Assembly: GCF_963678975.1 (NCBI RefSeq)
Contig: NC_089279.1
Coordinates: forward strand, 24,786,004-24,850,003
Direction of reading: 5' to 3'
Source: Dysidea avara
Taxonomy: Eukaryota > Porifera > Demospongiae > Dictyoceratida > Dysideidae
Length of the DNA stretch: 64,000 nucleotides
The position numbers were made by a program, and so were the translations under genes. Positions 32,061 through 63,472 of this stretch are shown one piece after another. Under the pieces are notes generated by a model. The model searched no databases and was not told where the DNA came from. It was given only the letters and a program-made list of their open reading frames with translations. Every line of letters begins with the position of its first letter. Position 1 is the first letter of the stretch.

Positions 32061-32091
32061 GTTTGTAAATGTCTTCCTGATATTGTTGCTT

Positions 32092-38900: not shown

Positions 38901-41900
38901 CATTGTTGGAAATGATGTATTGTAGCATTATAGATGATGCAAAACTGAGGGTGACATTATACTGCTACAATCTGTGATGTTATGGAGGTAGATCTCCTGT
39001 ATTTATATCACTTGGCCGTACAAAATAAATCCATGGCACACATATTTGCAGTTATAAATCAATATATAATGTTTTGATTGTTCTTCTATTTTTTTGCATC
39101 AGTGGTTGTATCAGTAAGTGCTATATCGTACTTCTTGCATGGTAATCTTGCTCAGAACATTCATCTTGGATCCCCAAAAACCAATCCCATCTGAAACTTG
39201 CAGTATAGCTACAATAGCTATACCAGTATATAGCATACTTACATTTAATGACAGTAGAATCAGAAAAAAAAAACACCATCCCAAGAACTCCTTTCATGTT
39301 TATAGCTCTACTGCTGTAACAAAAAAGAAAAACAATAATATAGCGATGAAATACTGTGGCTACATCATATTCTATGCACATAATTGACATACTCAGGTTC
39401 ACAATGGTGGATCCAGGATGGGGCATTTGGGGCAAATCCCCCTCACCTTGTGGAGGAGCCAGGCCAAGATCAGCTTATAAAACTCACGAAAATATGCACA
39501 TTTAACTAGCGTTTATTACCAATTCACCTGAAACTAAAGCAAACCAAAGTCAACTAGCTATGAAATTGTCACCCAGCACCTTCGTGCGTACTAAGCGCCT
39601 CTAAAAATAATTATCGTGTTGCTGTTGTTTAAGACATTCAGAGCCTTTTAAACAGCTTTTAAGATTCCACAACTATCTGCAAAGGCCAAAATAGTAAAAA
39701 TCAACAGTGAGATGCTACTAAGAGTATTTGCTGCTTCAAAAATGCAACAACTAACAACAGGATCTGGCTCTCCCTCGGGCTCTCCTAACCACCTACGACT
39801 TGCCTGTTTGTGCCCCTCCTCTTGCCAGGTCCTGGATCCGCCCCTGGTTCATCCCCTGATCAGGCTTGAGCCAATCTTTAGTGTAATAAAATCTTGCTCA
39901 ACATTGTGACTGGGTCTGGGAAAAACAGGTCAATGACAGCAGATTAGATTTTTCACAAAGAACACAAAACTGCATGAATGAACTACATATCAAATTTCAC
40001 AATTTAGACTTGAGTGGTCTACTTTTACTGGCTGCTCTCAATGGTGATCTGTATGAGCGGTCTTGGGCCCTATTGGAGCTCTGGCCAGCCTGGGGGATGG
40101 CTGCATGTGGCTGTACAGCTCCATGGTATTGAATAAAGACCTGCATGCACTATAAATTTCATTTTAGCTAGTTTTGAGACCTGAATGGCCCATAACTTGG
40201 CCTAATTCATCCCTACGTCTTCCTCTTTAATTTTGTGCACAGCCTCTTGCCTACCTTCCAGCCACCACCACCCACCCCGTTTGGAGCTCACCTGATACAA
40301 TCAACATCCAGTTAAAAACTATCTAAACTTTCAGTTTAAAACTATCTAAACTTAGCTGTTGGCTACTTGTACAGTGGATGATTTGGAAGTCAATTGATAT
40401 AAGTGCATGAAGAATACATTGTATGTATTGCGGTATGCAAAAAGTGAAAAAATCAAGCCTGTAGCCTTAGCCATTATTGAGTTATGCTTGTCTGAAGGAA
40501 GCATGTAGGCAGGCAGTTAGTCAGTCATTAGAAAATTCCATTGAATACAATTTAAAATTGTAGCTACTTATTGGAAGCATTTAGGAAGGCACTTTTGGGC
40601 TTGGTTATACCTAACCAATACTGCCAAGGCACCAGGATGGTATTGTGAAGCTGTTTTTTATTGGCCAGAAAAGCTCCAAACCTCCATGATCCCTAATATA
40701 TGGTACTACTGTACTGTATGATACTGTCTAAAGTCACTCCAGTGTCCTCCCAGATAGCAAAAATATGGGCCATGATATGCTCCATCTCCAGAAAGTATAC
40801 CTGACAAAGTTAGTGTAAAACTTTTCCAGATAGTGTAGCAATCTTATGTTCATGTTATTTGTATGCAGTATGTCACCAAAACATAGGTTTTCTGAAATCA
40901 GATCACATACTCAATATAGGCAATGGCATTTGGAATATGCTTTGATATTTGCAAAGTATGCAGGGCTTTTATTCTGGTAAGAGACCAGTACACAGGTATA
41001 TAACCAGGTAAGGTATCTATCACAAACTTTGACAAACAAATCACATAGCTACTTTGTTAGTTAACAAAATTCCAGTCACAAAACCCATTGTCTGAATAAC
41101 TAAGACATGTATTGCTAGAATTCTTCAGCAGATAAACACCCCTCAGAAATGATGTAATAGTCACCTTGGCTCTGCCTTAGTGATTGCTACATCATTCCTT
41201 TAGGCAATGAAAAACTATGATCCTAGCACCACTTGTGTACTAGGCTCAACAAAATTGCTTACAAAACTTTTCTTGTATAATGTATAGCTACTATTATCAT
41301 TTGTACATTATTACTATACAGGTAACTTTACTGACCACCCAACTGGAGGATATGACAATAAGTAATGAGGAGTTGACAATAAGTAATGAAGAACTGAGAG
41401 GAGAGGTTGATGTTCTCAAGACTGAAAATGATGGCCTCAAGGTAGAGAATAATGGCCTCAAGGTGCAGGCTGATGGCCTCAGAACAGATAACAATGGTCT
41501 TAAGGCAGAGAATTATAGTCTCAAGGTGGAAAATGCACAGCTAAGGGCTGAGAATCGATGTTTGAAGGTCAGTATTGACACAGGGTTAAGTACAGCACAT
41601 AAAACCATCACATAGAGTTATATATCAAGACACACAGTAGTGTGTCATGTGACCAAGACAGCCAGCACGCCACACTGACAGGAAGAAAGAAAACAGCATT
41701 TTCACACATGTATAGCTCCATGACTCCATTTCCAAAGCACACCATTTTTGCAATATAGCTGTCTGCCAGGTAGAGTAGTCCATACAGATTATATTCATAC
41801 CAACCAATCGCGAGATATGAACATCCATCTTTTTCCTTTTTTAGCTGTAGGGACTTCAATTTCTTTTCATACACTTTGCAAAAATTGTAAAATGCTCCAT

Positions 41901-44900
41901 GTGTAACCCGATTGCCACAAATTTTGGCATAAATGAAGAGTATAACTGTGAACATGAATTTACATTCTAAATATCCATGGAGTTATGAATGTTTTGCATA
42001 AAAAATATCAAACTTTGCTCAAGGCCACAGGATATTACAACCAAGCATCAAAATAACTTGAAAATTGGTGTGTACATAGGCTGATCATCATAGCAGTGCC
42101 TTTTGATGGTTTTGAAAAACAATGGAGTTACTGCTAACAGGGTTATAACACAAAATTTTATAAATCATGGAAACGAGGTACCATAATAAAGCCTTGTTTT
42201 GTGTGTTATACTGTACGGTAGCTTTATTTACTTTTTTATAGCTCCCTTGCCATCCCTGTACTGTGCTTTTTGTATGTCAGTGCAATTGCATGAGTCCGAG
42301 ATACATCTAATTGTATGTTGTGTTTTTAAATAAACATCTTATTGATAATTTGTTGTCTCAATACTGCAGGGTAAAAAAGATGCACAAAAATGTTGAAATA
42401 ATTTTCCAGGGTTCAAACCATGGACCTCCATACCTAACATCACATCCTTAACCACTGAAAAAGAAGAATGGCGCAAGACATGCTACAAAATTAATTTCAC
42501 ATCTGAACGGCTTTGGTAACCAATTTGGTCTAGCTGGATTAGATATACCAGGATTGATCTTTCTGTGACAGGCCATTACACTTCATTTTCAGCTATGTTC
42601 CACCTGTTACACAGTATTACAGATGAAGAACAGTATGAGAAGTGTCTCTGCAATCAATCCACTTGTTACAGAAAATACAGACATTTAGCATGATAGCTAT
42701 AGTAGTCAACACAGTCTCAGTGAAGCCGTATCGTACTATAGCAAATCAATACCTTGCATTATTAACAAAAAGAACTGGGGCACGAAGGAGGACAAAGTGA
42801 TGTATGCACTATAGCTGCTGCGGTTGGTGAAAATGCACTTCTCGGAATGAAGCAACATCAAGCAGTGAAGAAATCAAGCCTGTAGCTTTATCCATTGTTG
42901 AGTTGTGCTTGGCTGGAGGCATCAGGCAGTCAGTTAGTAGAAAATTTAGCTAAATTTCATAAACCTTGTTGGAAGGATTTAGGGTCGCTTAAAGACATTT
43001 TTGGCCTTGATTATACCTAAACAATGCTGTAAGCTATTGTGAAAGAAAAATGAGGCTGGCTTAAGGGATCATATATTTTAGGCTAAAAAAGCCCAAACCT
43101 TCATGATCCCTAGTATACAGTACTACTGTACTATATGATTATTCACATAAAATAAGATCAAACTTATGTTATGCCTACATGGTAAACCGCTTTGAGAAAT
43201 CAGTGGAAAATCAGTCTTTAGTTAGAGTAAGCATCATAGGAGTGCCTTTTGGTGGTTTGAAAGAAATTAAGAGTAAGACCCAGAAGATACAACACAGAAA
43301 CCAACAGTGTGTAACAACCATGCAACCGCAAGTTTTGTTAATAAAAACATTTAGTTGCCATGCCTATTAGGCAAACTGCTTAAAATCAGTGTATAGGTCA
43401 TCGTAGAATAACCCTTCAGTGGTTTAGAAGAATTAACAGAGTTATACTGTAGAAACCACCTACATGTAACAAATGCTTGTTCGAGATACACTCTAATAGC
43501 ACAGTCACCTAGGCCACCACTATTAGAATATTCAGTGTATCACAAGTCATCTTATAGCGAGTTCAGTACTTGTTTGAAGCTGAACTCTCTACAGGGTGAC
43601 TTGTTTGCAACTGAACTCTTTACACGATTACTTGATTGTAGCTGAACTCTCTGCATGATTATTGATTGCTTAATTGTAGCTGAACTCTCTACATGGTTGC
43701 TTGTTAGCACGCCCTGTAAAGAGTTCGGCTACACAAATGTCAACCTAGAGAGCTCAGCTAACAACAAGTCACCCTGTATAGAGTTCAGCCACAACAAGTC
43801 ACAATGTAGAGAGTTCGGCTACAACAAACAAGTCATCTTGTAGAGAGTTCAGCTAGAAACGAGTAACCCTGTGGAGAGTTCAGCTATAAACAAGCCACCC
43901 TGTAGAGAGATTAGCTAGAAACATTAGAGAATTCAGCTACAAACAAGTTACCCTATACAGAACTCAGTTCACCCTGTAGAGAGATCAGATAGAAACAAGT
44001 CACCCTGCAAAACTGGTGCTTCTCATGTTTTTCTTTTTTATTTACAATGTTGTATAATGGATGGAAAATAACTGAAACAAAGCCTCTTCACTTATATTAA
44101 TTGGGGCGTGTGTTTAAACTTTATGGTGACTATATAGACTGATCGTTTCTTATAATGTTCTTCATTTGCAATGTAGTATAACAAGTGGACCATAGCTGAA
44201 AACGAAGTGGAATGGCCACATTTTTTTCAGTAATGGAGTATGTGTTCAGTCACTCAATTGTTTGGCTGATGACATCCTTTTCTTTTTATAATTGTTTGCT
44301 AGTAACGAATTATGTTACAAAAAAAAGTGTACAAATAAGTGTAAGGAAAATTAGAAATTTTACAGGGATCATAGAAATAAAAAAGGAGGGTAATCTACAC
44401 CTGCAGCTATGCCAGTGGACATTAATTTTAATCCATATTGTTTGTTATACAAACAACATGTTAACATTGCTATTTGTTTAGGAACAACTGATCCTGTCCC
44501 CTACACCAGACCTGTTCAGTGGACCAGTGAACATCAAGTGGCAAGATGGAGCCCCTGTACCAGTTGGTGGTGTATGCCATACTGCTGTGTTATGTGATGG
44601 GAAGGTCTATATTGGAGGAGGCAATGATGCTGGAGGAGTATCATACAAGATTGATGTGTACACTCTTGCTAACAACTCATGGAGTCTTTCTCCTATCTAC
44701 TCTCCTTATTACCACTTTGCCATGACCATCCTCAACAACCAGTTAATCACTGCTGGAGGGAGGGATGGAAGTTTTAAAGTGACCAATAAGATATTTTCAT
44801 TAGATGGTGATCACCTAAAGGAGTACACCCGGATGATTACACCAAGATGTTGGGCCACAGCTGCTGGTCATCAGGTAACACTGATAACAACTGGCGGTAA

Positions 44901-45402
44901 AGATAACCAATTAAGAAAATTAGCCACTACTGAACTGTTTGACAGTACCACTGGACAGTGGTACACTACTAGTGACTTACCACTACCACACTCTGGGCTG
45001 CAGCCAGGAATAGTAAACAACACCCTCTATCTGTTAGGAGGGCTCAGTCAAGATGGCATGACCCCAGCAGTATTTACTGCTGCACTGGACACTCTGTCCA
45101 GTCACCAGTTGAAGTGGAGTTCACAACAAGATAATCCAAGGTGCTGTTCAGCTGCTGTCAGCATACAAGGTAGATATCTACTAGCAGTAGGTGGAGTGAA
45201 GGAAGGTGTGTGCACTAGTGACATTCACATGTTCAACAAGATCAGCCACAGCTGGGAAGTCATCGGACAAATCCCATCTGCAAGAGAAGCACCAGCTGCA
45301 GTAAGTGTAGCTGATAATAAAATAGTTGTAATAGGAGGATATGATGGACAGTGTGCTAATACTGCTAATACAGTATGGATTGGATCAATTGAGCCACAGT
45401 AA
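35910..45402 (+). CDS. Protein kinase / heptad coiled coil / kelch fusion protein
   Basis: Exons 35910-36159, 36208-36917, 41322-41567 and 44482-45402, all phase-consistent; a 13-codon exon at 36979-37017 is optional. About 708 residues. Kinase domain at about 18-290: Gly loop IGRGAYGRVF, Lys42 in AAKEV, HRD 145-147 in VHRDLTPNNILL, DLG 165-167 in place of DFG, PPE 191-193. It looks active and of TKL type. Residues 321-402 are eight or more near-perfect heptads (LKTENDGLKVENNGLK...), a likely dimer coiled coil. The C-terminal 300 residues form six kelch blades, each with a GG core (VYIGGG, ITAGG, ITTGG, YLLGG, LAVGG, VVIGG), a protein-binding propeller. The ATG at 35910 follows an AT-rich leader and gives the kinase a 17-residue lead. 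Cytosolic; no signal or membrane segment. The kelch partner and kinase substrate are unknown. Two long introns carry repeats. Confidence 0.85.
37043..37344. mobile_element. hAT-like MITE in kinase-kelch intron
   Basis: Ends CAGGGGCGGATCCAGAG and CAATCCGCCACTG are inverted. Inside are the doubled CTCTATTAGAGT motif with ATCTCGATC (37228-37268) and a C run. The flanks GCAGGCTG and GGCAGGCA may be a worn 8-base target duplication. Confidence 0.7.
37345..39403 (+). other. Kinase-kelch intron, low-complexity and motif copies
   Basis: Contains paired CTCTATTA-type motifs near 37511, 37899-37925, 38105-38135 and 38825-38865 and a run of 20 C at 38303-38322. No exon candidate matches the needed phase. 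Confidence 0.55.
39404..39847. mobile_element. hAT-like MITE
   Basis: Inverted ends ATGGTGGATCCAGGATGGGG and AGGTCCTGGATCCGCCCCTG. About 440 bases, no transposase. It shares the GGATCC/GGCGG core with the elements at 19.9, 24.9 and 37.0 kb. Confidence 0.7.
39890..40285 (-). repeat. Partial reversed copy of the TGTGACCCAGTCTG TIR family
   Basis: Begins TTGTGACTGGGTCTGGGAAA and carries, on the other strand, blocks found in 62707-63337 such as GGGATGAATTAGGCCA and GGTCTCAAAACT. Only one terminus is clear. Confidence 0.6.
40400..40740 (+). repeat. R2 fragment
   Basis: Shares AAATCAAGCCTGTAGCCTTA, GAAAATTCCATT and the GGGCTTGGTTATACCTAACC block with the fuller R2 copies at 57.2-58.1 and 42.6-43.1 kb. 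The left third is missing. Confidence 0.7.
41618..42465 (-). repeat. R1 composite, reversed: hairpin, body, inserted block, tRNA-like head
   Basis: Plus-strand order: hairpin GACACAC-AGTA-GTGTGTC (41629-41646), R1 body to about 42180, a block at 42180-42385 that also occurs at 29750-29940, then the linker and tRNA-like head (GGTTCAAACC at 42415 on the plus strand, complement of the B box). Compared with 16815-17610, the middle block looks like a later insertion. It begins 51 bases after the coiled-coil exon of the kinase-kelch gene. Confidence 0.7.
42580..43110 (+). repeat. R2 copy
   Basis: Contains AGATGAAGAACAGTATGAGA, AAATCAAGCCTGTAGC, GGCATCAGGCAGTCAGTTAG and GGATTTAGGGTCGC, in the same order as 57.5-58.0 kb. 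The left end is missing. Confidence 0.7.
43140..43520 (-). repeat. R1 fragment, reversed
   Basis: Holds two rounds of the R1 sub-block (GGTAAACCGCTT and GGCAAACTGCTT, each followed by ATCATAGGAGTGCC-like or ATCGTAGAATAACC-like sequence) and ends in the CGAGATACACTCTAATAG motif at 43483-43500. The hairpin end is absent. Confidence 0.65.
43565..44010. repeat. Inverted pair of minisatellite arrays
   Basis: Units of the 30-bp family run forward (GTAGCTGAACTCTCTACA) to about 43710, then switch to the reverse complement (TAGAGAGTTCAGCTACAA) to about 44010. The switch makes a large imperfect palindrome inside the last intron of the kinase-kelch gene. Confidence 0.88.
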
Positions 45403-47644
45403 TTGTATATACATTGTATTGTACCATCTTATTGAAACAAACTGTTAGTATATAAACAATTGACTGTGCTAACTGGTGATATATAAATGCTGTGCATTTG
45501 TTGTACAGACTCAGGTCAATTCCACATTTGACACCCACAACCAGATTGTTACCATACATGTTAATGCACGATGTGTGTGAAATACCCTCACCTCTCAAAT
45601 ATATCAAATAGTAAGGTGTTACTTCTTTCACCACCCCCTACCAATTGCAACTCATCCCTTTTTCCTCACTATCTCTTGTATTCCTGATACAAAGATATAC
45701 AACGTGTGGAGCTATCAATACTATGTCACTCACTCTATCTCTTGATTTGATGATTAAAATAGTTAATTTAACACACATGCACTGTATTGCTACCTGCTCC
45801 AGTAGCATCTGCTCCACCTGACATAGGAGTAACCGTTCCTAATTTCTCTATGTGATTCTACCTCAATGGCCACATGTACACACAGTGACATTCATATGTA
45901 AACTACTAATATTTATACATTCTATGCAACATGGTAAACACGTGTATTACATTAATTCTCACTTGTATAATTATAGCTACTACAAATTGTAGCTACAGCT
46001 ACGCATGCAAAATCTAGGATAAAGAGCTTTTCCAGACAGCACATCCTGGATACTGCTATTGTCAGACTGTGACCTATCCAGCAACAGTTAAATTTATATA
46101 GTTATGCATTTTTAAAAACTTATCCTTTAGGCTTGGTGGTTTCATTGTGGCTCCATATAATCATTGAAACTTCTATGGCTTTCTTTCTTTCAAATCAATG
46201 TTTGTGTTTTTATGCATTAAGTTTGTTGGTGTTTGTCTATCTCAGGATCATAGTGTGCTTGTGTGTGCACGTGCTTGCATAACTTAAACTGCTGTGCTGC
46301 ATACTATATAATTATTATATAAAAGATTCATTGCATTTCATCATTATAAAAATGTGTTTTGCTGAATATTTGAAGTTTATAATGACAACACAGAATAAAA
46401 TAGCTAAGTTTGTCAGTTATTATTGCATCACAGATTTCATTTTCATAATACCTTGCTTACGTCTTATGGTAGCTTGTATTACTTTACAAACAGATCACTA
46501 GCTTTGATACAGTATCATCATTGTCTATAAAATAAACAACTGCATAACCCAACTAACCAGATGACAGCTGCAGAAGTGCAGCACATCTGATAAAAAATAA
46601 TGTTATCTACAAAATAATTACTGTATGCTCCTACAGTCGTCCTAGCTCCTACATCTACATACCTACATAATTTCAGCAGCATTTTTGTGATCTTCCACTT
46701 ATGCTTGTGTACATGAAGAGGACTGAATGATTTAAGTCAACTATGTAACATGATGTTCACACCGCAAGGGTTTGTACTCAGAAGGTTGAAATCTACCCTG
46801 AGTGATTACCCATATCCATAAGTTAAGGAATCTGTGTGTGATGCTTGCTAATTAAAGAATTATGAAGTCATGAAGATATTAGTGCTATCATTAATTATTT
46901 TATACTGCATGTTAGCTACCAAATACTTCTTGTTGCCAATTGTTAAGAATAAAGATACTTAGTGCATGTAATTATAGGTTCTCAAAAGTTAGAGCTGTAC
47001 CAGGTGGATTTTGCTTAGGGAGACACAGTGGTAGAAGTGACTGCATAATGCGGTATACATGTGCAATGCACACTCTGTGAAATTTAAAGCATGAGATTTT
47101 TTAGGGCACCCCCCCCCCCCCCCCCCCCCAATTTTGACTAAGGTTTGTAAATGTTTATGAAAATGCTATACTGAGCTGGAACAATTAATAGTATAATGTC
47201 TAGGCTATAATAGCTCTCCAAAAGAAATTTTGAAAAATTAACCTTTTGAGATTGAATTTGGCAGCAATTTTGGCTGAAATTAAGGTAAAAATTTTTATTG
47301 AACGTTCAATACCTACTGAACTAAAAATAAAATTAACATAAGGTCGGAAGCATATGCAAGCATTGCAAAATTTTAAAACCTGTTGCACATGTATGGCGTG
47401 CAGGTGTATGATTTTTAATCTACTAGCCACATGCATTAACTATAGAATCAGTAACTCAATATAGAACAGGTATTTTAGTTGTTGAAACTGATAAACAGTG
47501 TCTACTAATTATGCTATTCTTGATTGTTCTATTAGAGTATTTCGATCTGTAAATGTCAAGGGGATCTACCATCTAACCCACCTAGTTTCCAATGTTCCCC
47601 TTGCACTATGCCTATATATGAGTAGCAATTTGCAATTGCTAGTA
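45403..47644. other. Intergenic region between kinase-kelch and talin-kinase genes
   Basis: AT-rich. The start would be the 3' UTR of the kelch gene. A run of 21 C lies at 47109-47129, and a CTCTATTAGAGTATTTCGATC motif at 47528-47548. No gene is supported. Confidence 0.55.
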
Positions 47645-47904
47645 TATATGTGACCGAATTTTGGAAAAGCACCCATATGGGCACATTTGACACCAAAAAT
47701 ATTTAATGATCAAATCGCAAACTTTATAGTGCAAATCTACTTGTTAATGGTTGTAAGCCATTGTCAATGCCTTAAATTACAAGAAACTTCTTGAAATCTT
47801 TTTAAAACTGTGCCATGCTTTTATTAGCAACCCATTAAACATGAAAATTCTAATTATTTCACACGTGCCCATATGGGTGGTTTTCCAAAATTCAGTCACA
47901 TATA
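47645..47904. mobile_element. MITE with TATATGTGAC ends and long TIRs
   Basis: Left TATATGTGACCGAATTTTGG and, on the other strand, right TATATGTGACTGAATTTTGG, continuing through AAAASCACCCATATGGGCAC for about 40 paired bases. About 260 bases; short ORFs inside are incidental. Shares the ATATGTGAC start with the elements at 31.2 and 62.7 kb. Confidence 0.88.
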
Positions 47905-48166
47905 CACAGTCATAACTGTACCAAAAATGTTGAATTGTCAATGTATTACACACTGACAATTTTCTGAAGGGGGCACTGACCCCTGCTAAATCTGCCCCCA
48001 CTAACCTGGGTTAAATTGAAATGATGCAATAAGTTTAGTAAACCTTTTACACCAAAATATTTTCAGTAATTTATAATCAGTACTCATAATTCAACAAATG
48101 AATGGGTTTAAAACTCACACTGAAAATGTATGTTTAGGTACAACAAACACGATAAGAGAAAAACAA

Positions 48167-51100
48167 TTACATAACTGCAGCACCGATCTTATCCAGTTTT
48201 ACAAGAACATCATACATTGTAGGTCTGTCACTTGACTGTTGTTTGGTACAACTGGTGACCAGTTGATAATACTGTGGATAATGCTTGCGGACTTGTATTT
48301 TAGGGATGTCCACCATTTCAAATGGATGAGCCTGAGTGAGAGTTTCAATAATCAGGGTACCAAAACTGTACACATCTATCTTTGGGGAAAATTTTGTGCA
48401 ATCACCAGCATCAGGAGCTATTTTTCCAAAACTTGGTGTGGTTGTTTGTTGTTGTATCTTAGCAGTACCCAAGTCTCCCAGTTTGGCCAGCCACTCACCA
48501 TTGTACAGTACCTTTAGTAACACATTGGCACTACTCACAACACAATGGATTACTGGATCTGGTCTGGTGTGTAAGAAATGAAGTGCTTTAGCAACATCGT
48601 GAAAAATACCATGTATCTGGTGATCAAGGATACGTCCTTGTTCACATGCTTTTTTCAAGCTAACATCCATTAATTCCCTCAAGATTACTGGAGGACCCTC
48701 TATTGTAGCTCCAAAAAAGGTAACAATATTTTGATGATGACACTGAAGTGCAATTTCCATTTCCTGTTGAAATAACGTTTTAAATTCTGAGGTAGTGACA
48801 AGACCGGGAAGACACTTAGCAGCAACAGTGGCTCCTTGGAATGTAGCCTCATGGACAGTAGCCCAAGTTCCTCTACCAATTTCTCTTTCAATAATGAACT
48901 GATCATGTGAGATAACCCATAACCTAGCAGAGGTAACCATGGTTAACATACCTAGCAAATGTTGTTGAGTACAGGAAAGTTGAAGGATCAATTGTTGCAG
49001 TTGTTGAGTATAGGTTTGTTGCAACTCATCACAGCATTGCTTTCCATAATATATCAATTCATGAATATTCTTATCTGCTGCTAGTGCCACATTTTGTAAC
49101 AGTTTATCAAATCTTTTCTCCACACCCATTGCATCTTCAGCCAGTTTGTTGACAGATGCATTAATACCTGCTATCTGCTCACTATTGTTAGATTTTATCT
49201 GTTGTGTATTCTTGAGATGTTCAAGATGCTGATAGAAAGATGATGCTATTTCGCTTTGTTTAGATGATGCAGATGATATAGAAGCTCTGCTATCAGGTGA
49301 TGACTCTGGAAAACACAAGAACAAGTTAAACATGATGAAAAGAAAGCACAAGCCCGCTGCTATTTATTTTTCTAAAAGAGAAGACTTATAATCCACACCA
49401 AAACAGCCAAGCTGTGAAAAATGTGTGGCCTTAAAAAGCCTGGGTGAAATAATTCCTTTAGAACTTTAAGCTCACATTTAAGTGAGTGGTGTCTAAGCAA
49501 ATATCAGATTTGAGTTATAGTACAGAAATTTTTGAATAGTGTACAAATCAGTGCAAATATATCAGCGTAAAAATGGTGTGTGTCAGTATCCCCTAATTAA
49601 TGTGCAGCAATATGTAATGATGAATAGCATTACCATAGTGATTGAAATACCTGTAGCACATCTGTGGAAAGCAGAGAAGAGAAGACAGAAACTGCAGGAC
49701 AAATTTTTCTAAGCCAAAAGTGAAAAGTTAATTTTTTAATAAAGGGCACCTATGCTGAGATGATCTCGCCAAAAGGAATTCTTTTTTAAAGGGCAAAAGA
49801 AGCCACCTAACTATGCACAGTAAAACTATGCTGTAGCTATAGATTTTTCAAGGGAGAAATTTTCATGGATTAGTTGTAATCTACGAAAATTTCTCCCTTG
49901 AAATTTGCAGTTTCATCAAAATGGCAGTGCATATGCAAAAGATTTCCCCCTCGAAATTTTACATGGTGGCAATATTTAAAAAAACTCCCCTAAAAAGGTA
50001 TGTGCTCCTCCATGTGAATGAGTATAAAATTAATAAAACAAGGGAAGTCTCTTATACCTGCACTTTTATAGCGGACCTACTTTTAATTAATGATGGCTAT
50101 AAGAGTTAAGTAGGGATTACATGTCCACGTGCACTACTATAGAGCAGGCAATTTCTCCTGTTTCATTATACTATATTTATTTCTATGACCCCTATTTGAA
50201 ATTAAAATTATTGTGTTCTATTAAACTTTATTAATCAAAAGTTTTAACATTATCTCAAGAATATAATTTCAGTTAGATTTCATTTTGAAAAGCTATCACC
50301 TTAGCCAACTGAGGGATGGACCCCAATCTTCCTTCCACATCCTTTTTGTTGATCATGTGTTAAAGCTTTTCCATTAATTGGTCAAGTGCTCTAGGGCTAA
50401 GATACAATATTGTTTGCTTTAAACAACTCACTTCTTTCTATGTAAAGCACATTTTTCTTTTGAATTCTATACATGTCCATTTCACTCTTCCGTGATTGCT
50501 GATCAGGTTTGTTTGATAGCACAGGATCTGTCTATAAAACGTAAGGTAAACTAGACATATACAAATGAAAATTAAAGAAAACATAGTACGGTGATCTTTA
50601 CAAAAAAAGTGCTTAAACAAGAGGGCACCTGCAGTGCAGATTTAGTCAGTACTTTAGCTATCACAGGGTACAGTAGTACTGTACAGTAGAGATGATGATG
50701 GCTTAGGTTTCAATGCCCTAAAATAAAACCAACCTCACTTTTCCTTCATAAAAACTTGGCAATGTTAGTTAGGAATTTAAAATTCCTTCAAAGCATTTAA
50801 AAAGTTTTATGAAATTTCTATTACCTGAATTTTACTAACTGACAGATGCCTTGAGACAGTATTAGCAAAGCAAAAATGCATGTGCCTATACTAATTACTT
50901 AGTTTTCTGGCCACGCAACTTACTACCATGAGTCTTGTCTACCAATTTCATGCTAGTGAGCATTCTGAAAGTTAATGCGATGTTTAGGTATCAGCTAACA
51001 TACTATAAGACTATACTCATGTGTATGTACCAAAAATTCAAAAAAATCATGAAAATTGAACAAGACTAATGACCAGTAAAGATCTTTATGTCGCTAGTAG

Positions 51101-52527
51101 ATTACATTGTACGCATAACAAGGCTTGTGGGAGACCCATGTCATAACTATACTATTAGGGAAACACACAACTGCACATAACAAATACCACACATAACTCT
51201 GAATATTATTCATTACCTGACCAGTGCAGGCATCAGACAATTTGTCTTCTGTTTCTTTATTCACACCTTGCTTTGTTAACTCCTGATCATTACAATATTT
51301 CATTACGGTAAAATTAATGTAACTGTTAATCATGTCAGAAATGCACTTCCCTTCAGTAGTTTTAACTGAGTATTTATGATCTGAATATTTGCCAAAATCA
51401 AATGTGAGCATATCAAGTAAACATCTCCACTGATAAAGCTGGCTTAATTTCCACTTCCATTTAATACTTTTACTGCCTGCATCAGCACCAAGTATTGAAT
51501 CTTTACTAATACCAAGCAGAATTGGTACTGGTTTGTTGTGCCCTTTCACTTCTTCTTGTACCTGAAAGAACATAACACCATAGGTAGGTAATGACTGGCA
51601 TAGCTTGATGTATTGCAGCTTAGCATTGGCCTCTGACATCCCATGTAGCTTGCGGTGTTCGGCTATTATCAGATCATCAGTAATTCGCTTAGTTTTTGTG
51701 TACACATGAGGCAAGAACCTAGGCAGGTTTAAGGCTTTGTGTTTGGTATGCTCATAATCACCAAGGTCTACCTGGCATTGTAGGGCAGCAAGTTGTATGG
51801 CTTCTTGTTTAGTGCACCAGAGAACATCATCTACTACATCTTTCTGTAACTGGTGGAATTGAAGATGTACCTCAATGGAATTGTGATGAAGCTTCAAAAA
51901 GAAAATTTTCCTCTTGAAAATAAGCACTTCTGTTTCACCAATCCCCTGTGTGCGCAGTGATTCATAGTGATCAAGCCAATCAGTTGTAGCGCCAACTGCA
52001 GAACAACCCTGTGACTTTTCACATTTAAGAGTGCCAGGTCTTGAGTCTTTCAACTGCTCCGCTTCCGAGGCCTGATCAAGTATTAAAGAGTACTCCTCTG
52101 GGGTAGTTATTCCAATATGGCCACTGAATTGTCTCACCAACTTGTCCACATTGTGACTCAAATCAACTATTAATGACTCCTGGGTGCCATCCATCAATTT
52201 TACCCGCAGCAACCCAACCTTCTTAAGATACTCTAAGACATCATCATTACTCAATCCGTAAACTCGGAGAGGCTTCTCTGCTGCTAACCAGCGTCCTTTA
52301 TCAATTTTGTTAACGATGTAGGGTTGAAACAATCCATAGTCATCCGCGCAGGGGTTGGCAGCTTCACCTACAAGTAGGATCGATTCTAGTCTTGATTCTA
52401 GCATTCGCTGGTGAATAATACCGATGCAGTCACGTACCATAGCGTTTTCGTCAAACTGGATCACTTTAGCTATGACTGTACTTCGCTTCGTGTTTATAAG
52501 TTTGATGGTAAGTGACAGAATAGACAT
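48167..52527 (-). CDS. Talin-type FERM head fused to coiled coil and a TKL pseudokinase
   Basis: Minus-strand exons 52527-51217, 50531-50432 and 49305-48167 join in phases 0 and 1 to about 849 residues. Residues 1-430 match the talin head: F0 start SILSLTIKLI, F1 LLRVKLMDGTQESLIVD and GITTPEEYSL, WLDHYESLRTQGI, F2 AALQCQVDLGDYEHTKHKA and SLPTYGVMFFQVQEEVKG, F3 VPILLGISKDS and LTFDFGKY. The Trp matching talin's integrin-contact Trp (RW in talin; QW here) is kept. A Lys/Gln linker and a coiled coil follow (about 440-600), then a kinase domain (about 608-848): REIGRGTWATVHEA, Lys634 in VAAK, but H-C-V for HRD (about 724-726), DLG for DFG, and APD for APE. It is probably a pseudokinase. A role at integrin-type adhesions is inferred. 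The ATG at 52527 is preferred over 52578 because talins start at this point. No rod domain is present. An alternative is two genes, but no terminal or initial exon is seen between the parts. Confidence 0.82.
49395..49450 (+). repeat. Foldback R6 arm fragment
   Basis: ACCAAAACAGCCAAGCTGTG and TGTGGCCTTAAAAAGCC match the left arm of R6 copies at 9.3 and 16.2 kb. It lies in the second intron of the talin-kinase gene. Confidence 0.75.
49845..49905. repeat. Hairpin of about 20-base arms
   Basis: TTTTCAAGGGAGAAATTTTC and its complement GAAAATTTCTCCCTTGAAA flank a 20-base loop. A degraded third arm-like copy follows at 49940. Intronic in the talin-kinase gene; probably a small foldback element. Confidence 0.8.
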
Positions 52528-52708
52528 CGTACACTGTCGTACTGTAACGGAGCAGTGAGCGACGAGAGAATTGCGCATGCGCTATGCATTGAGAAGATTG
52601 CACACATATTTATTTATAATCTAATTTATTCTGTTCTGCGAATTCTGTCTAGGGAACTGTGAGAATTTCTCTCAAAAAGACAGCCTGTACAAGCATAGAT
52701 AATATATC

Positions 52709-53118
52709 TATAGAGGACTTGCACGCGTGAAGCAACTGTTGCTAGGCAGACATGTTTCGGGACAACTTTCTATGGCGCATATTGGGTCAGAATGAAGGTA
52801 ACGAGATTTATTCACTAAGCGCTGGGTATAGTGGCACTGGCCGCGGGGCTGGTTTCGAAATAGAAGATCTTATCATTGGCTTCGTGAAATAGGTGGCTAA
52901 TTAAATTTCGGTACATTACTCACCAATTCTAACTTCGTCGCCTTTTTTAACGAGCTGTGTGGTATTTACAACACAACTCAACACTGATTCGCTTCATTAC
53001 AGCCTGTACCAAATCCTGAGAAAGCGCTTTTCAGCCAAAACACTGTCCCGAAACATGGCCGACAGCTACGGTTGCTTAACAATTACGATGATTTACGTCA
53101 CGCTGCAAGTCCTCTATG
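52709..53118. repeat. Inverted pair of start-codon-bearing segments upstream of the talin-kinase gene
   Basis: 52709-52766 and the complement of 53118-53045 are alike: TATAGAGGACTTGCA at the outer edges, AGCAAC in the middle, then an ATG with TTTCGGGACA. The ATGs (52752 on plus, 53056 on minus) face each other. The plus one opens MFRDNFLWRILGQNEG before a GTAACG donor, the minus one MFRDSVLAEKRFLRIW before GTACAG. No continuing exons were found. The left arm begins 182 bases upstream of the talin-kinase ATG, so it may hold its promoter. Confidence 0.6.
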
Positions 53119-53189
53119 GTACAAGGGTGCTTCCCCAAGGTACATACAGTACTACATAAAAAAAAACACATGACTACCCGAGTGACTAC

Positions 53190-53600
53190 CATAGGCGGCG
53201 GAAAGGGGGCTAAAGCCCCCCTCTCGGTCTGCTGAGGGGGGCTTCGCCCCTCCTCAGAATGATATCGCACCGAAATTATCCTTCTTGGAGTGGGGCTGAA
53301 AACCGTGATCGGTAAAGATCGAGATACTCTAATAGAGTAGTCACTCTAATAAAGCAGTCACAGTATTAGAACAGTGTGTAGTGAGCTATATATAAGGATT
53401 TTTAAGTAGTTTATCAGTAAATTAGTAGCTGGTGAGGTGGGCAGCTATTGTCAGTTGGCTGTGACCTTTTTTTTCCGTCTCACCTTACCAAACCAGAGAC
53501 AATGTATGCCTCAGTTCATTAGTTCATTTTGACCCCCTTTCCATAAGTCTGGATACGACCCTGCCCCCCATATCAACTACTTCCTCCACCACTGATGACT
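53190..53600. repeat. Dispersed repeat R4, copy 2
   Basis: Left edge ATAGGCGGCGGAAAGGGGGC, GC-rich stems, AAATTATCCTTCTTGGAGTG, then GATCGAGATACTCTAATAG with the doubled motif (53319-53365) and right edge ATCAACTACTTCCTCCACCA CTG as in copy 1. Confidence 0.65.
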
Positions 53601-53649
53601 ACATATAGTCTACATTATACAGATAACTACTAACAAGCACATAAACAAC

Positions 53650-53960
53650 GTTTCAGTTACATATTTCTGAATCCCTGTATTCACAGGCTTTAGCCTTCTC
53701 ACAGGTCCCTAGTGGGATAGAATTTAATAAAGAAACAAGAAATACACATATATAATGAAAATAGTAAGAAGAAAATATCCTGACCGCCTGGCAGACTCCT
53801 GTAAGCGTTCGAGCGTTAATTGGATGGCTATGGGTTCGAGGCTGCCCAGGTCCAGTCATGGATTTTTTCTTCTTTCTCTAACTTTTCAAACATACTTAGT
53901 GCAGGCACTATAAACATCTTAGGCCTTTATAAGGCCTTCTGGTATACAGGCTCTGCCTTT
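53650..53960 (+). repeat. tRNA-derived SINE and an adjacent LINE-like tail
   Basis: 53780-53860 has a B box GGGTTCGAGGCTGCCC and an A-box-like start (CCGCCTGGCAGACTCCTGTA), giving a tRNA-like head. To its left, ATCCCTGTATTCACAGGC and CTCACAGGTCCCTAGTGGGA recur reversed at 63370-63440. To its right, AGGCCTTTATAAGGCCTT forms a small palindrome. The head recurs reversed at 59455-59550. Confidence 0.7.
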
Positions 53961-54230
53961 ACCAGGTACTTTAATCATAATAACTAAAAAGATACTCAGT
54001 AGCTTTCTGGGGCTCCACCTTATAATATGCAGTGTGGCATAGAAATCCATAAATGGACTGGAACACTAGTATTGATAAAAAAATGAGTACTGACATGTAC
54101 AAATGCCAAATGAACAACATATATACTTGTACGAATGGAAGCACAAATGAGCTGACTACTAAGTAAACCTAACTAGCAAGCTTTATGCACATATAATTAT
54201 GGATAATTAAATAGCCAAATGGCGGGCTCC

Positions 54231-54332
54231 TCCCATAGAAGGTTTTCGTATTTTTTGCAGTCAGCATGCTTTCACAAGTGACTCTTGTGAAAGCACATTG
54301 ACTGCAAAACTCCAAAACCTTTCATAGGTCCA
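54231..54332. repeat. Foldback element of about 100 bases
   Basis: CAGTCAGCATGCTTTCACAAG-type left arm pairs with CTTGTGAAAGCACATTGACTG around a 5-base loop, and AGAAGGTTTTCG / CAAAACCTTTC extend the stem. No coding content; the rest of 53960-55336 shows nothing else I can support. Confidence 0.85.
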
Positions 54333-55336
54333 GTGGTCCTAAAATTTTGCAGTTTAGTAATTGTCACCCAGTTACCTCTGGCTCAGTCATACGACATATA
54401 GCTACTCATGAAACTTGTGTCACTATAGCTACTGAGCTCACCATGCACGGTTTCGGCAAACATCCAGGCTGTTATAAGCTCTAAAATTTTGTACTACTTA
54501 TCTAGCTAAATGTTATAAGCCTAGTATATAGTTATACACAGAGACTAATGTATTGAATAGCCACAAAAACTTGGTTTTAAATAAGATAGACTATGTCAAT
54601 CAATGTTAAAATAACTTGAATATTATACAGTTAGAGCTGGTCAGACATCATGAAAAAGTTATGGATTTTAGAAGCTGCAGCTGCACCCCCAGATCCTTGG
54701 AATCCATATATACTTCAGTAAAGCCCAATACTTCAATGGCTTGTTCAATTGTAACTGGATCTACAAAAAAAGGTCTTATAATAGCCTCTGAGATTGACTG
54801 TAACTACTCTTGTGTTTAACCTATTACCCTACAATTACACAATCAGTACAATAATTATAGGCTAGGGGTATACTGTAACCAAATTTCAAGCTGTTCCCAG
54901 GCTTATTCACAAGTGAAGTTATGAAGTACATGACATCTTTTCACACATTCGGTTACTATACATCAATTAACAATGAAAACACAAGTCAATCCTACAGCAA
55001 TCAAGTCCATCTTCCTTCATGATGCCTTCTACTGCTGTCTCAAACACGCATACATATACTATACAATAGTACAGAGCAGCAGTGTAAATGGCAAGCAACA
55101 TCTTAACCAGCCACTAACAAACGGTATCATTATTTCAAAATATATGTCATTGAGTAATTTCTCCAGCCTAGAGGTAGAATCTTGTAAAGTAGGGCTGAGA
55201 TACTATAACTGCACACTGGCTTCATGTATTTCTTCTATTGTTACCACTTTAAATTTCATTTTTTATTTTTGTGGCAATTGCAAATGCTATAAAAATACAC
55301 TGATGTATGCGCACGTACAAATATATATGTGTGAAG

Positions 55337-57104
55337 TCAGTCGCTCACTCCAATCTCATCCAACTGTACAAGAACATCATACATTGTAGGTCTGTCACTT
55401 GACTGTTTTCTGGTACAACTGGTGACCAGTTGATCATACTGTGGATACTGTTGTTGAGCTTGTGCTTTAAGGGTTTCCACCATTTCAAACTGAAGTGTTT
55501 TTGTAAGAATTTCAATGATAAGGACTCCAAAACTGTACACATCCATCTTAGGAGAGTGCTTAGAGAAATTGCTAGCTTCAGGAGCTCCATATACTATAGC
55601 ACCAGGATTTGCAGTGGCTGTTAGCTGTTGTATTTTAGCAGTACCCAAGTCTCCCAGTTTGGCCAGCCACTCACCATTGTACAGTACCTTCAGTAACACA
55701 TTGGCACTACTCACATCACGATGGATTACTGGATCTGGTCTGGTATGTAAGAAATGAAGTGCTTTAGCAACGTCATGAAGAATACTATGTATCTGGTGAT
55801 CCTTAACTTTTTCTTGTTCATATGCCTTTCTCAAGTTAATATCCATCAATTCCATCAAAATTACTGGATCACCTTCCATCGTAGCTCCCAGGAAAGTGAC
55901 AATGTTTTGATGCTGACACACAAGTGCCATTTCCATCTCTCGTTGGAACAATTTTCTCGTTGTAGAAGTTATAGCACCATGAGGACACTTAGCAGCAACA
56001 GTTGCTCCTCGGAATGTAGCCTTATGGATAGTAGCCCAAGCTCCTCTACCAATTTCTTCTCCAATTGTAAACTGACCATGTGAGATGGATAATAATCGAC
56101 TAGAAATAATTACAGACCGTAAACCTATCAACTGTTGTTGCATGAGAGAAAGCTGGTTGTGTGTAGAAGCTAGCTGCTCTTCAAAATAACTACGACTAGA
56201 TACTAGGCTGCTTTCTATATTCAGCTTCTCCTTTTGTATTCTGTCTGCTGTTTCTTGCATCATTGCATGACTCTTATCATGAAATCTCTTCTCCATTGAA
56301 CTCACATCTTGATGAAGTTTGTCAATAATATTTTTGATAATGCTTTTCTGATCTTTTTTATCATTTTGTAATTGCTCTACCTGATCTTGAACAATTTTAA
56401 GGTTAAGACGAAGTTGTGTGGTGATCTCATTATCTATAGAAGAAAAAATTAAATGTTATCCTGTAATTTGAAACCAATGGCTCCCATTAGCAGTAACACA
56501 TGTGCATATTGTACTTACTGGCTAAATCTTGTTGGTTCCAAGGATGCTCATTGAGTGTAACACTGCAATCTTCAGAACTTGGCGTTTGCAAAGAAACATT
56601 CTGTGTTTGTGAATGAGAACTGGTAGTTTCATCTGTGTGATGATCACAACACATTTGAACTGCTTCATGGCCATTGTCATCAACAGTGCCAGCATTGATG
56701 ACATGGAGTGAAGATACATCATCACAAACAACTTTATTTTTCTGCTTCAGTTGGCTAGCTTCATTTAGCAGCTTTTCTTGTAGCTTACTGTCTAGCATGG
56801 ACTCATCTATAGTGGACCAGTCATCAAGTGCTATCTCCTCTTTGGACTTCTGGATTCTCTTCTTCTTATCAGAGTTAACAAGAACATGTTCATAGAATGC
56901 AAGGGCTTTCTTCTGTTTAGCAATGGTTCCAGAGTCATCACTGTAGTTTGATGCACTACTCATCTGTTTAACCATGGTGGAGTTTGAGGTTAGCATGCTA
57001 GCTGGAAAGAAAAGTTTGGTATGACTTGCATTAGCCAGCTTGAAGCATTCTTTCTTCACAGCTTGTATATGCTGTGGAATATCTTCACAAGAAACATCAT
57101 CGTC
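55337..57104 (-). CDS. Coiled-coil TKL-type protein kinase, intact paralogue of the 48-kb kinase
   Basis: Minus-strand exons 57104-56519 and 56433-55337 join in phase 1 (85-base intron). The first encodes about 195 residues, acidic then Lys/Ser-rich (QKKALAFYEHVLVNSDKKKR), of no family I recognise. The second has a long coiled coil (ITTQLRLNLKIVQDQVEQLQ onward), then a kinase: EEIGRGAWATIHKA, VAAK Lys, VIHRDVSSANVLL with HRD intact, GDLGTAKI for DFG, GAPEAS with APE intact, ending at TAA or TGA near 55337. It should be catalytically competent, Ser/Thr or dual specificity. The kinase half is about as long as that of the 48-kb gene and nearly identical in DNA over its catalytic core. The 5' end is open: exon 57104 starts with an acceptor in phase 0, so a start exon lies upstream (see 58181-58234). 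Confidence 0.85.
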
Positions 57105-57179
57105 CTATTGAAACAGTGCTTTAGTTAAAAACATCACTACCAGTAAATGTGCACTGTTTATGTGCACACATACAATTGA

Positions 57180-58110
57180 AAGATATACAGGACAAAGAAG
57201 TACGCAAAAAGTTGGAATTTTCAACTAGAGTAGGGACCATAGCACATTGATAAAAAGTACTGAATCAAGCTGGAGTAGTGCATGATATTAAATCACAGTA
57301 AAACAATGATATTAAATTACAGTAAAACAATAAGAAGTGTACTACTACAGCTAGTTTCAACACTTTTTATCAATGTGCTATGATCCCTACTCTAGTTGAA
57401 AATTCCAATTTTTTGTATGCTTGCTTGTTAACTTTTTTTGTAAAATAAAATTATTATGACTGCATGGTGAACCCACGCATACTGCATCAAAAGAAAGAAA
57501 TGGTGCTGCACATCCCAGCTATCAACTATCATCTGAAAAGTGAAGTATCCATTACGCTTCATTGTCAGCTGCGTATGTTCAACCTGTCACACAGCATTAT
57601 AATCAAGAACTGTTTGAAAAGCACCTCCACAATCAAAGTAGCCACGATGAAATACACTGACAGTTTCCATTACGAAGGGAAGCCATCTCACGCTGCCACC
57701 AAATCGACACCTTTTGCTGTCAGCAAAGATGAATAGGGCACAAAGGAGGACACTGGTAAGTCCATGAAGAATGCATTGTATACACTGTGGTATGCCAAAA
57801 GGCATATGTCTGGCTGAAGTAACATCAAACCAAGCCCATAGCCTTAGGAGTTATCAAGCTATGCTTATCTGAAGGCATCAGTTACTCAGTTCAGTCAGTC
57901 TAGAAAATTCCGTTTAATATACTTTTAAAATTCCATAGCAACTTGTTGAAAGTGTTTCAGGTTGATCTGTTTGGGCTTAGTCTTGTCTAACCAATAGTGG
58001 CTGCCTCATCGTCGTCTGGGAAAAGTGAGGCTGGATTTTGGGTGATGGTTTACCATGGGTTATGCCCAAAGTTTTGTGGTCTCTACTATACAGTATTGTC
58101 GCACTATATG
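57180..58110 (+). repeat. Dispersed repeat R2, fullest copy, carrying a foldback
   Basis: Runs from GGAATTTTCAACTAGAGTAG to the block TTTACCATGGGTTATGCCC. The first 195 bases (57210-57405) are an inverted repeat: TTTTCAACTAGAGTAGGGAC returns as GATCCCTACTCTAGTTGAAA. The 17.96-kb copy has one arm only. The R2 body then follows as in the other copies. It fills most of the gap between exon 57104 and the candidate first exon 58181-58234. Confidence 0.75.
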
Positions 58111-58180
58111 ATAGAGAAAAGCAAATAGTACACTTTGCAAGCATGTCTTTATAATCATTGGTAACGTTTGTTCCATTTAC

Positions 58181-58234
58181 ACATACGTACCTATATTCCA
58201 GAGAATCAAACTGCCTTGATTGGATATTACTCAT
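58181..58234 (-). CDS. Candidate first exon of the 55-57-kb kinase gene
   Basis: ATG at 58234 opens MSNIQSRQFDSLEYRYVC, followed by GTAAAT as donor, which keeps phase 0 with exon 57104. A stronger-looking donor 12 bases earlier (TATAG/GTACGT) would give phase 2 and break the frame. The only support is phase and the lack of another start. Confidence 0.3.
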
Positions 58235-60690
58235 AATCAGTATTAATGGGATGGTAGGAAAAGTGCATTCTTGTCATGTTCCTTAGTAGCTAGATTTGCT
58301 TTTAACTATCATTAAGTTGATACATAGTTCCAAGTAACCAAAACAGTATGAGTTTCATGCACAAATGCTAACCATCATGATTCTTCATAATGATTCACAC
58401 ACTGTAAAGTGCTAATAATAAATATTTATTGGAATTCCTACCATAGGAACCTACGAGAGGGCCAAAGCCTGTAAATGTAGGGAATAAGAATCTTGGCATT
58501 AAACTGTGTAGAATGCAGATAATGTATAGTGGTGACTCAATCCTCTTGCAAACATGTAGTCTATAGACACCATCTTATCCCACTGTGCTTGAGCACATGG
58601 TGGTTTATCACTATTGTCCTCAACTCATCTTGCACTAAGACGATAAGAAAGATATTGCTCTAATACTAAAAATTTATGTACAAATCTGAAAAGCCATCTG
58701 TCTGCATTCCCTTGCAATCACCAACTTTTTCACTGTCTCCACACATACCAAAGCAGTTCTTGTGCAAAACAAGGTACTAAGAATAAATGACACTTCTTAA
58801 AGCCACCATTCATTATCTACAGCTCATTAAACGCAAGGGTGGTGCACCTGTTCAAATCCTTGCATGGTGAACCACAAGTAAACTGATACATTCAATTTAT
58901 GCATGCCTTTACAAGCAGGTTTTAGTAACCACAAAACTGTTCATAAGAGATTAACATATTGGTTAAAAGAATGAAAGTACCTTCTACTTGTGAAGTAGTG
59001 CATTTACTAGATTCAAGTCCCCTGATGGTTTTGCAAGCTTTTAAGTTGCAACTTGTTTTCATTTTATGGTTACAACTTTTACTTTCTGTTTTCTTTTTTT
59101 TGTCATTGCTTATATTTTACGGTTGTTAGGGAATTGAATCTCAGACTTCCTCCTTTCCCCCCATCCAAAACGGTGAGTCAAAACTACGTTAAACTGCACA
59201 CACACTCTTGAAAATACTCACAGATCAGTTTCAGGCAGTCTACTTTTCAAAACTCTCCTAGGGTACATATACGACTATCAAAATTCCCACATAGTGATAG
59301 CTATTCACACCTTTTTTAGATTGCTAGGGTCTCATGGTATTATACAATTACGATCAAATTATGATGTCTTTTTCACTTATTTATTTTTTAAAGGCTATAC
59401 AGCACGAATACTGAAGGTCTATAGGAACTAAATGTGTTTCAAAAGGTGAGAGAAAATCCATGACTGGACCTGGGCAGCCTCGACTCTGCAGCCATCCGAT
59501 TTGCGTTTGAATACTTACAGGAGTCTGCCAGGCAGTCAGGATGTTTTCCCCTTGTCTTGCACAAATGGACAATTGGAAACAGCAGAAATAAAAATGGAAA
59601 AAGGTCAAATTGTCATATGCATGTATGCTAAAATAGTTGCTTATTAGCCACTTCTTAAAGACCACCTTGTTACAAAGACCACTTCTGTACAAAGATTGCA
59701 TTGTAAGATTCTTATATTGACTACATTATAAGATAACTTCATTATAATGGCTACCTATATACAAGGACTATCTATTTCAATGTAAGTTCCAAACACTATA
59801 TTTCATGACTTTATTGTCAAGGTCAGCTAAACAAAGCTAGGCACTTAAAGTCATCTCCAAATGGGACTGCATTTTTCTTTGATACAGTTGCACTACACTT
59901 CACCTACAAGGCCGTTAAAGGTCCCTGTAACCACTATTTTGTATGTGACAGAACTATATATAACTGATTATGGTAAGGATGGTAGTCTGATAACTTGAAT
60001 GAAGTGTGTACCAATATAATGGGAGATGAAATTGACATCATAAAGTAGACCATAAATTTTCTGGAGCTTACAAACTTGACATAAGTTACTATAAGTGTTT
60101 TTTGCTAAGAAGGTCATAAAGAATACACCTGGGCCTACTTGACATGGTCACTACAATGGGCTGACCTTATTAATGAAGTCCTAAAGTATGTATCTGAGGT
60201 CTAACTACGTATACTTGACAGACTAATAATACATGTGGCAAGGTGGTCTTAGTAACAAGGTGGCTATTAAGCGAGGTTATAACATACACATGTATATGAA
60301 GGTTTGAACATTTCCATTTTCCAGTCCATTACCTGTTTCCAATTGCATGCAATAGATCTGACCTCCACATGGTTGGCCTGGATTATAATGCCAATATTGC
60401 AACAGTCATCATGCATCAAGCTCTACTAAGTATCAGGCTTTAGCCAATCACAAAAAATGAATACTGGCTTATGACACACTGAGCCTTGACTAACCAGTGA
60501 ACTATTTAAACCGTTTTTAAGTATACATGATGGTTCTGCATGTATATAGGGAATATACCGGTCATGATTTATCACGTTACATGAATCGATAACATATATA
60601 CTCACAGTGCACTGCAGGGTAGCTATCACTATGGTAATATATAATTTAATCTATTTGTCTGACACACTGCTTACTTTCTGGTGCATCGAC
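58235..60690. other. Gene-poor region with a reversed SINE at 59455-59550
   Basis: The SINE copy has the complement of the tRNA-like head (GGACCTGGGCAGCCTCGA, CAGGAGTCTGCCAGGCAG) seen at 53.78-53.86 kb. The rest is AT-rich without a supported gene. Confidence 0.55.
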
Positions 60691-61500
60691 ATGTATCATG
60701 AAAACAGCAACCTTTTACCCAAAACAGTAACTTTTCTGAAATACAATAGCGTTATCCCCAAAAACAGCAGCCTTGTCCTCGTATTTTGTCCCCTTAAAAA
60801 CACCATAATACACAAAACAGCAATACTTGTCCCCAGAAATAACAATATTCTTCATAATACACACGTCTTATGTATGATAACTCAAAACAGCTATACTTAT
60901 CTTCATACTACACACATCTTATGTATGTTAACTCAAAACAGCAACCTTGTACCCAAAAACAGTAACCTTCCCCAAATACAACAGCCTTGTACCCAAAAAC
61001 AGTAACCTTCCCCAAATACAACAGCCTTGTACCCAAAAACAGTAACCTTCCCCAAATACAACAGCCTTGTACCCAAAAACAATAACCTTTGCCAAATACA
61101 GCAGGCTTGACCCCAATAAGGCAGCCGTTGTCTAAAAAACAACAGTACTGTTCATAATACAGCACCTTGTCCCCAATACAGCACCTTGTCCCAATAATAA
61201 CTCTAATTTACAACAGCCTTACCCTCAGTACAACAGCCAAAATCAACACCTTGTTCCAACAAAACAGCAGCCTTGTCCTCAAACATAGCAGCCTTTTCCT
61301 CAATATCAGCCTTGACAGCAACCTTGTCCTAACACCTTGTCCCAATAAAAACAGCAGCCTTTTCCCCAATATAGTGCCTTGTCCCAATAAAAACTGCTCA
61401 GTCTTGTCCTCAATACAACACTCAAAAACAGTAGCCTTGTCCCCAATACAGCAGCCTTGTTCCCTTAAACAGCAGCCTTGTCTTCAACAGCTAGACTTCA
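60690..61500 (+). repeat. Satellite of about 20/40-bp units (ACAGCAGCCTTGTCCCC type)
   Basis: Degenerate CAGCAGCCTTGTCCCCAA units. Between 60941 and 61100 four near-perfect 40-bp units (AACAGCCTTGTACCCAAAAA plus CAGTAACCTTCCCCAAATAC) show recent expansion of a two-monomer block. Frames across it on either strand read repeats but drift, since 40 is not a multiple of three. Confidence 0.93.
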
Positions 61501-61504
61501 AGAA

Positions 61505-61870: not shown

Positions 61871-61874
61871 ATAA

Positions 61875-63337: not shown

Positions 63338-63364
63338 ATTTTGGTGACCTTTTATCATAATGCT

Positions 63365-63440: not shown

Positions 63441-63472
63441 GAAGAATGCAGAAGAAATTCCAGACCCAGTGG

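Follow-up and report, generated by a model that had tools for sequence, protein, structure and literature searches.

The best explanation of the minus-strand locus at 52527-48167, in the 64,000-nucleotide stretch of DNA analysed here (the window), is a three-exon gene for an 849-residue rodless talin-head protein that would act as a scaffold with a TKL-like pseudokinase, a reading to which we assign a probability of about 0.65. The head, helix and kinase parts are clearly present at the locus, which is a probable animal gene. When the three exons are joined, their phases agree and no internal stop is encountered across the 849 codons, and the exon borders, the phases and the 100-base linking exon with both its splice sites were all found as the first-pass annotation had described them. 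The same annotation had placed neither a stop nor a start exon between head and kinase; the absence of a stop held, but exon 2 contains in-frame ATG codons at 50480 and 50474. The locus is laid out as follows:

51217..52527, minus strand: exon 1 (1311 nt, 437 codons), talin-type F0-F1-F2-F3 head, ending in phase 0
CAG/GTAATG, minus strand: exon 1 donor, in the top 2.1% of minus-strand GTs in the window
50532..51216, minus strand: intron 1 (685 nt), with a stop at 51094 if read unspliced
50432..50531, minus strand: exon 2, a 100-nt linker running from phase 0 to phase 1
49306..50431, minus strand: intron 2 (1126 nt), containing a small palindrome and a dispersed repeat
48167..49305, minus strand: exon 3 (1139 nt), long helix and TKL-like kinase, with the stop codon at its low end
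47820..47825, minus strand: candidate poly(A) signal AATAAA of the gene

The short dispersed repeat of intron 2 occupies 49390-49452 and has copies near 9.3, 9.6, 16.2 and 16.4 kb.

Comparison of the head with PDB sequences by phmmer returned 89 distinct sequences at E <= 0.001, and among the best 60 of these 89 talin-2 was the top match (E 1.3e-64, residues 15-406), with talin-1 also leading. Within the same 60, the talins reached 222 bits compared with 64 for the best kindlin (E 1.8e-16) and 47 for merlin (E 2.1e-11), a margin wide enough for the head of exon 1 to be classed with the talins rather than as a FERM of generic type. Pfam profiles identified F0 (FERM_f0, E 2.5e-12), F2 (FERM_M, E 1.7e-24) and F3 (IRS-type PTB, E 2.4e-13) in that order, with F1 represented only by an RA-like match below the cut-off. 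Pfam and PDB matches consequently agree on the full talin-style head that had been proposed for exon 52527-51217. F0 to F3 align over their length with talin-1, 145 of 388 aligned residues being identical, and the identities by domain, with borders that are our own, are 31/73 (F0), 38/113 (F1), 33/94 (F2) and 42/100 (F3). Residue 15 of the head aligns with residue 13 of talin-2, so that the protein begins near the talin start; the F0-F3 head spans about residues 1-410 of the 849 and is contained as a whole in the single exon. Structure prediction for the head from a single sequence gave a model with a mean pLDDT of 32, too poor for comparison with talin.

An excerpt of PMC2977851 names six talin-1 residues for membrane association, namely K256, K272, K274, R277, K322 and K324. 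By a single pairwise alignment to talin-1, on which all residue mapping is based, four of these six are kept (K256, K272, K274 and K324), while R277 is replaced by Asp and K322 by His. The F3 positions that contact integrin (L325, R358, W359, A360, Y377 and I396, of which we take A360 and Y377 to be contact positions) are retained less completely by the same alignment, with only W359 and I396 kept (2/6) and the remainder changed (L325 to Pro, R358 to Gln, A360 to Arg and Y377 to Lys). In the excerpted text of PMC2958305, the W359A and L325R substitutions cripple talin-1 in cells and R358A is far milder, and the surface facing the integrin tail is formed by W359 and I396. Since these last two residues are kept, some integrin contact may remain. 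From these residues, membrane docking appears likelier than talin-like integrin activation, and the protein is likelier to be a rodless membrane-docking scaffold than a talin-like integrin activator. The adhesion-linked role previously suggested for it is no more than plausible.

The kinase of exon 3 (hereafter k1) matched Pkinase in Pfam (E 4.4e-25) and no other family type, and its nearest solved structures, among the best 60 of 759 PDB sequences, were CTR1, WNK1 and IRAK4; with reserve, it is regarded as TKL-like. The domain retains its glycine loop, together with the beta-3 Lys and the DLG Asp, but HRD reads HCV, APE reads APD and three residues are missing directly before APD, so that k1 lacks the complete signature of an active TKL-type kinase (beta-3 Lys, HRD Asp, DFG Asp and APE). 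The earlier proposal of a pseudokinase is founded on the loss of the catalytic Asp by one base, the changed APE and the three-residue gap, and k1 is probably inactive. A two-sequence structure model of exon 3 had a mean pLDDT of 43, for which reason only its long helix was used; this is predicted at residues 41-127, with pLDDT values of 73-82 only within residues 51-100, and is taken as a putative coiled coil. The exon had been described as coiled-coil/kinase, a description with which the predicted helix, read in this manner, and the Pkinase match are in keeping.

A paralogous kinase in tandem, k2, lies approximately 7 kb upstream of exon 3 on the same strand, and a third copy was detected elsewhere in the window:

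55337..56433, minus strand: paralogue k2, helix-kinase exon with intact HRD and APE and a phase-1 acceptor
56519..57104, minus strand: exon X (586 nt), the middle exon of the paralogue, running from phase 0 to phase 1 provided that 57104 is its acceptor
32058-32380, plus strand: third kinase copy, a broken fragment found by tblastn that reads HCD at the HRD site

The k2 exon and exon 3 share 57% protein identity and 80.7% DNA identity over 741 aligned columns. The acceptor of X at 57104 is mediocre (top 17.9%), and X matched no Pfam or NCBIfam domain, its best PDB match having an E value of 0.76. The first 36 codons of X, which precede its first Met, had coding-like scores (top 0.1% when the training set included X; top 0 to 4.3% in four training sets from which X was held out), and this coding signal upstream of the Met implies an earlier exon. 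X displays no meaningful similarity to exon 2, and neither tblastn nor Pfam located a talin head between X and the window end. A layout consisting of a phase-0 exon, a middle exon leading to phase 1 and a helix-kinase exon is, as judged from the sequence, probably common to both loci.

The two kinases are 92% identical over 48426-48625 and 55602-55801 (minus strand), compared with 79% in the two neighbouring blocks, and the 92% block may reflect gene conversion around the catalytic loop. The fragment at 32058-32380 may be closer to k1, because both have the Cys codon; if so, the Arg was lost first and the Asp was then lost in the k1 line by one base. This fragment sits among copies of a minisatellite-like repeat, which abounds at 9.8-12.4 kb and occurs again near 43.6-44.0 kb. 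Upstream of X, an inverted-repeat element of MITE-like shape (57192-57428) has related copies at 17982-18708. The plus strand carries a further kinase (35943-36938), a coiled-coil-like open reading frame (41244-41615) and a kelch-repeat open reading frame (44482-45402), which perhaps, as a guess, constitute one gene. At 3-3319 (minus strand), cut by the window edge, retroelement pieces match reverse transcriptase, RNase H and integrase, with weaker protease and zinc-knuckle matches, in a domain order that we take to be that of Ty3/gypsy elements.

To locate the end of coding in exon 1, codon statistics were derived from exons within the window; the training set of the main cumulative model contained FERM codons 1-397. 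Read in the FERM frame, this model reached its highest cumulative score at codon 437, directly ahead of the donor, and six further training/background sets, evaluated from codon 380 on, peaked at codons 437, 437, 444, 438, 438 and 394; the coding end accordingly falls within one codon of the donor at 437 in five of the seven models (four of the six further ones). Ranked against open non-coding stretches, the 40 codons before the donor fall in the top 1.4% in one model and in the top 1.9-10.6% in six others. Codons 438-477, which would be read through, are matched or exceeded by 85% of null stretches (67 to 93% in six models). As the coding signal stops at the donor, onward splicing of exon 1 is likelier than termination at the 51094 stop codon. 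Close to the end of this exon, positions 51266 and 51221 also make good donors, both in phase 1 and both in frame straight to exon 3; since such alternative donors also give an open frame, phase agreement alone is weak evidence and was rejected as proof of joining. Direct splicing from either of them to exon 3 is itself less favoured, the coding signal reaching codon 437.

Exon 2, which encodes TDPVLSNKPDQQSRKSEMDMYRIQKKNVLYIER plus one extra base, has an acceptor in the top 3.7% of AGs and a donor in the top 1.2% of GTs, and the exon 3 acceptor is the strongest of the gene (top 0.6% of AGs). Under strict thresholds, defined as its own splice scores, and under looser ones alike, exon 2 is the only open phase-0-to-phase-1 exon in the 1.9-kb gap. 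The number of such exons expected per 1.9 kb is 0.06 at its own strength (four in both window strands, exon 2 included) and 0.48 at the looser thresholds (from 32 in the window), values obtained with generic animal splice matrices that may not fit this organism. Splice support for joining is consequently moderate, and weaker at the looser settings. The coding score of exon 2 lies in the top 1.5%, 2.5% or 1.9 to 4.2% (six models) of open non-coding stretches, and the 20 codons upstream of the exon 3 acceptor have a non-coding score. Within exon 2, the 17 codons before the first Met rank in the top 0.4 to 1.3% (six models), and the score per codon is 0.305 before the ATG versus -0.023 after it. 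Because the codons preceding the Met are the most coding-like, exon 2 has the appearance of an internal exon and not of a start exon.

These data bear directly on the rival that survives best, although we consider it unlikely, in which two same-strand neighbours are present: one gene for a talin head lacking a rod, which would terminate either at 51094 or in an exon that escaped notice, and another for the kinase, with exon 2 as its first coding exon and the ATG at 50480 as its start. That ATG is in frame, in the context GAAATGG and with a fitting phase, yet exon 2 is most coding-like ahead of it and the codons past the exon 1 donor look non-coding. The variant poly(A) hexamers CATAAA, AGTAAA, AATAGA and ACTAAA occur between 51216 and 50432 and would serve a separate head gene; AATAAA and ATTAAA are absent from this minus-strand stretch, which weighs little against such a gene as the stretch is so short. 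Additionally, k2 offers the example of a kinase that has no talin head of its own in the window. A single gene is nevertheless favoured, because codon bias ends at the donor, exon 2 is coding-like and the phases of the k2 locus match, and the same three observations (coding end at the donor, coding-like exon 2, paralogue phases) make the one-gene arrangement inferred in the first-pass annotation the best model. We accordingly hold it likely that head and kinase form one gene, with most of this likelihood falling to the functional scaffold and a small part to a joined gene devoid of function.

The latter reading, that a young retrocopy beside the kinase has been joined to it and yields a protein without function, is improbable. 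Its single-exon head, the lost active site of k1 and the plainly broken fragment at 32058-32380 are what it would lead one to expect, but 437 codons in exon 1 and 378 codons in exon 3 stay open without a stop, and the extent of identity to talin-1 across F0-F3 (145/388) points to long divergence without decay. Furthermore, dN/dS between the kinase domains of k1 and k2 is 0.39 (53.9 synonymous and 90.1 non-synonymous differences), or 0.48 for the whole exon and 0.17 to 0.77 in blocks, in each case averaged over both lineages; given the value of 0.39, the k1 kinase is not simply decaying.

To return to the joined, functional gene, the three minus-strand frames of 49305-51217 and 38200-48166, and hence the strand downstream of exon 3 as far as 38200, contain no Pfam family at all, a talin rod included, and the masked-frame scan was positive in its control, recovering both FERM and kinase. 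Neither a helical-bundle rod nor an I/LWEQ actin-binding end was found in the scanned stretches, exon 3 matching kinase models only, and the statement that the head carries no rod thus holds for 49305-51217 and 38200-48166 on the minus strand. The weakest rival, in which exon 1 opens an ordinary talin gene with its rod exons at some other place and the kinase gene is nested in a talin intron, would fit a donor placed directly after F3, where the rod linker would come, but is most improbable given this control-backed absence of Pfam families from the two scanned stretches and a head that is diverged, intronless and changed at its integrin residues, unlike the expected main talin.

A six-frame tblastn search of the window for other talin heads returned, besides the head itself, only a pair of matches at the level of chance (E 0.14 and E 3.8), and no Pfam domain was detected in three frames of the minus strand at 57105-64000 and 52528-55336. 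Relatives were sought in viral, bacterial and archaeal collections, which are silent on other sponges: the head gave four pattern matches in viral contigs and 10 in prokaryote genome contigs, and the kinase exon gave 21 in viral contigs, none of which was confirmed. Among the matches listed in the open-licence literature searched, no description of a talin-head kinase order was found.

The occurrence of F0-F3 without introns in a single exon suggests, by the logic applied to TLNRD1, that the head is a talin cDNA copy. According to the excerpt of PMC8287531, TLNRD1 has a single exon versus 11 for talin R7R8, and its authors suggest that talin mRNA returned to the genome; in the excerpt of PMC6820919, the freshwater sponge E. 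muelleri is reported to have two talin homologues. In the mechanism that we propose, a reverse-transcribed piece of talin mRNA would have landed upstream of the duplicated kinase gene, where the retrocopy would have taken the position of first exon, with exon 2 in the place that X occupies in the paralogue. The resulting chain would consist, in order, of the F0-F3 head, a short linker, the long helix and the TKL-like pseudokinase. Through its head the protein would dock on acidic membrane, where there may also be a weak or altered contact with integrin tails; the helix would dimerise it, and the pseudokinase would serve as a scaffold or decoy for partners of the sister kinase k2; unlike the talin rod, the protein would not link integrins to actin. 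That the rod was swapped by way of a talin retrocopy for a dimerising helix and pseudokinase, giving a membrane-docked signalling scaffold uncoupled from classical integrin activation that may antagonise talin or k2, is put forward tentatively, with somewhat less than even odds.

FERM-kinase proteins have central roles in adhesion and in cytokine signalling. The predicted protein resembles FAK and JAK in carrying a FERM and, after it, a kinase on the same polypeptide, and differs from them in its talin-type head with F0 and its TKL-like pseudokinase; to our knowledge, the known FERM-kinase proteins (FAK and JAK) have other FERM types and tyrosine kinases. The FAK order (FERM, tyrosine kinase, FAT) is absent here, the head being talin-type, the kinase near CTR1/WNK1/IRAK4 and the downstream stretch as far as 38200 devoid of Pfam families. 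JAK also carries a pseudokinase, but its order (FERM-SH2-pseudokinase-tyrosine kinase) is likewise absent, as no SH2 and a single kinase domain were found. ILK is a TKL-group pseudokinase scaffold at integrin adhesions with ankyrin repeats and no FERM; it was not among the best 60 of 759 PDB sequences for the kinase exon, and no Pfam match to ankyrin repeats was obtained before the kinase, so that the ILK order is not present either. With talin-1 and talin-2 the protein shares the F0-F3 head over its length and a start close to theirs, and it departs from them in the helix and kinase that take the place of the rod, within the stretches scanned, and in the changed F3 positions. If the proposed gene is real, the talin head would be an independent, reusable module, and its function in isolation from the force-bearing rod could be addressed directly. 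As in TLNRD1, a talin piece resides in one large exon, but TLNRD1 represents a rod part (R7R8; excerpt of PMC8287531), whereas the present piece is the head and is joined to a kinase, and this would then be the second proposed new gene derived from talin mRNA after TLNRD1.
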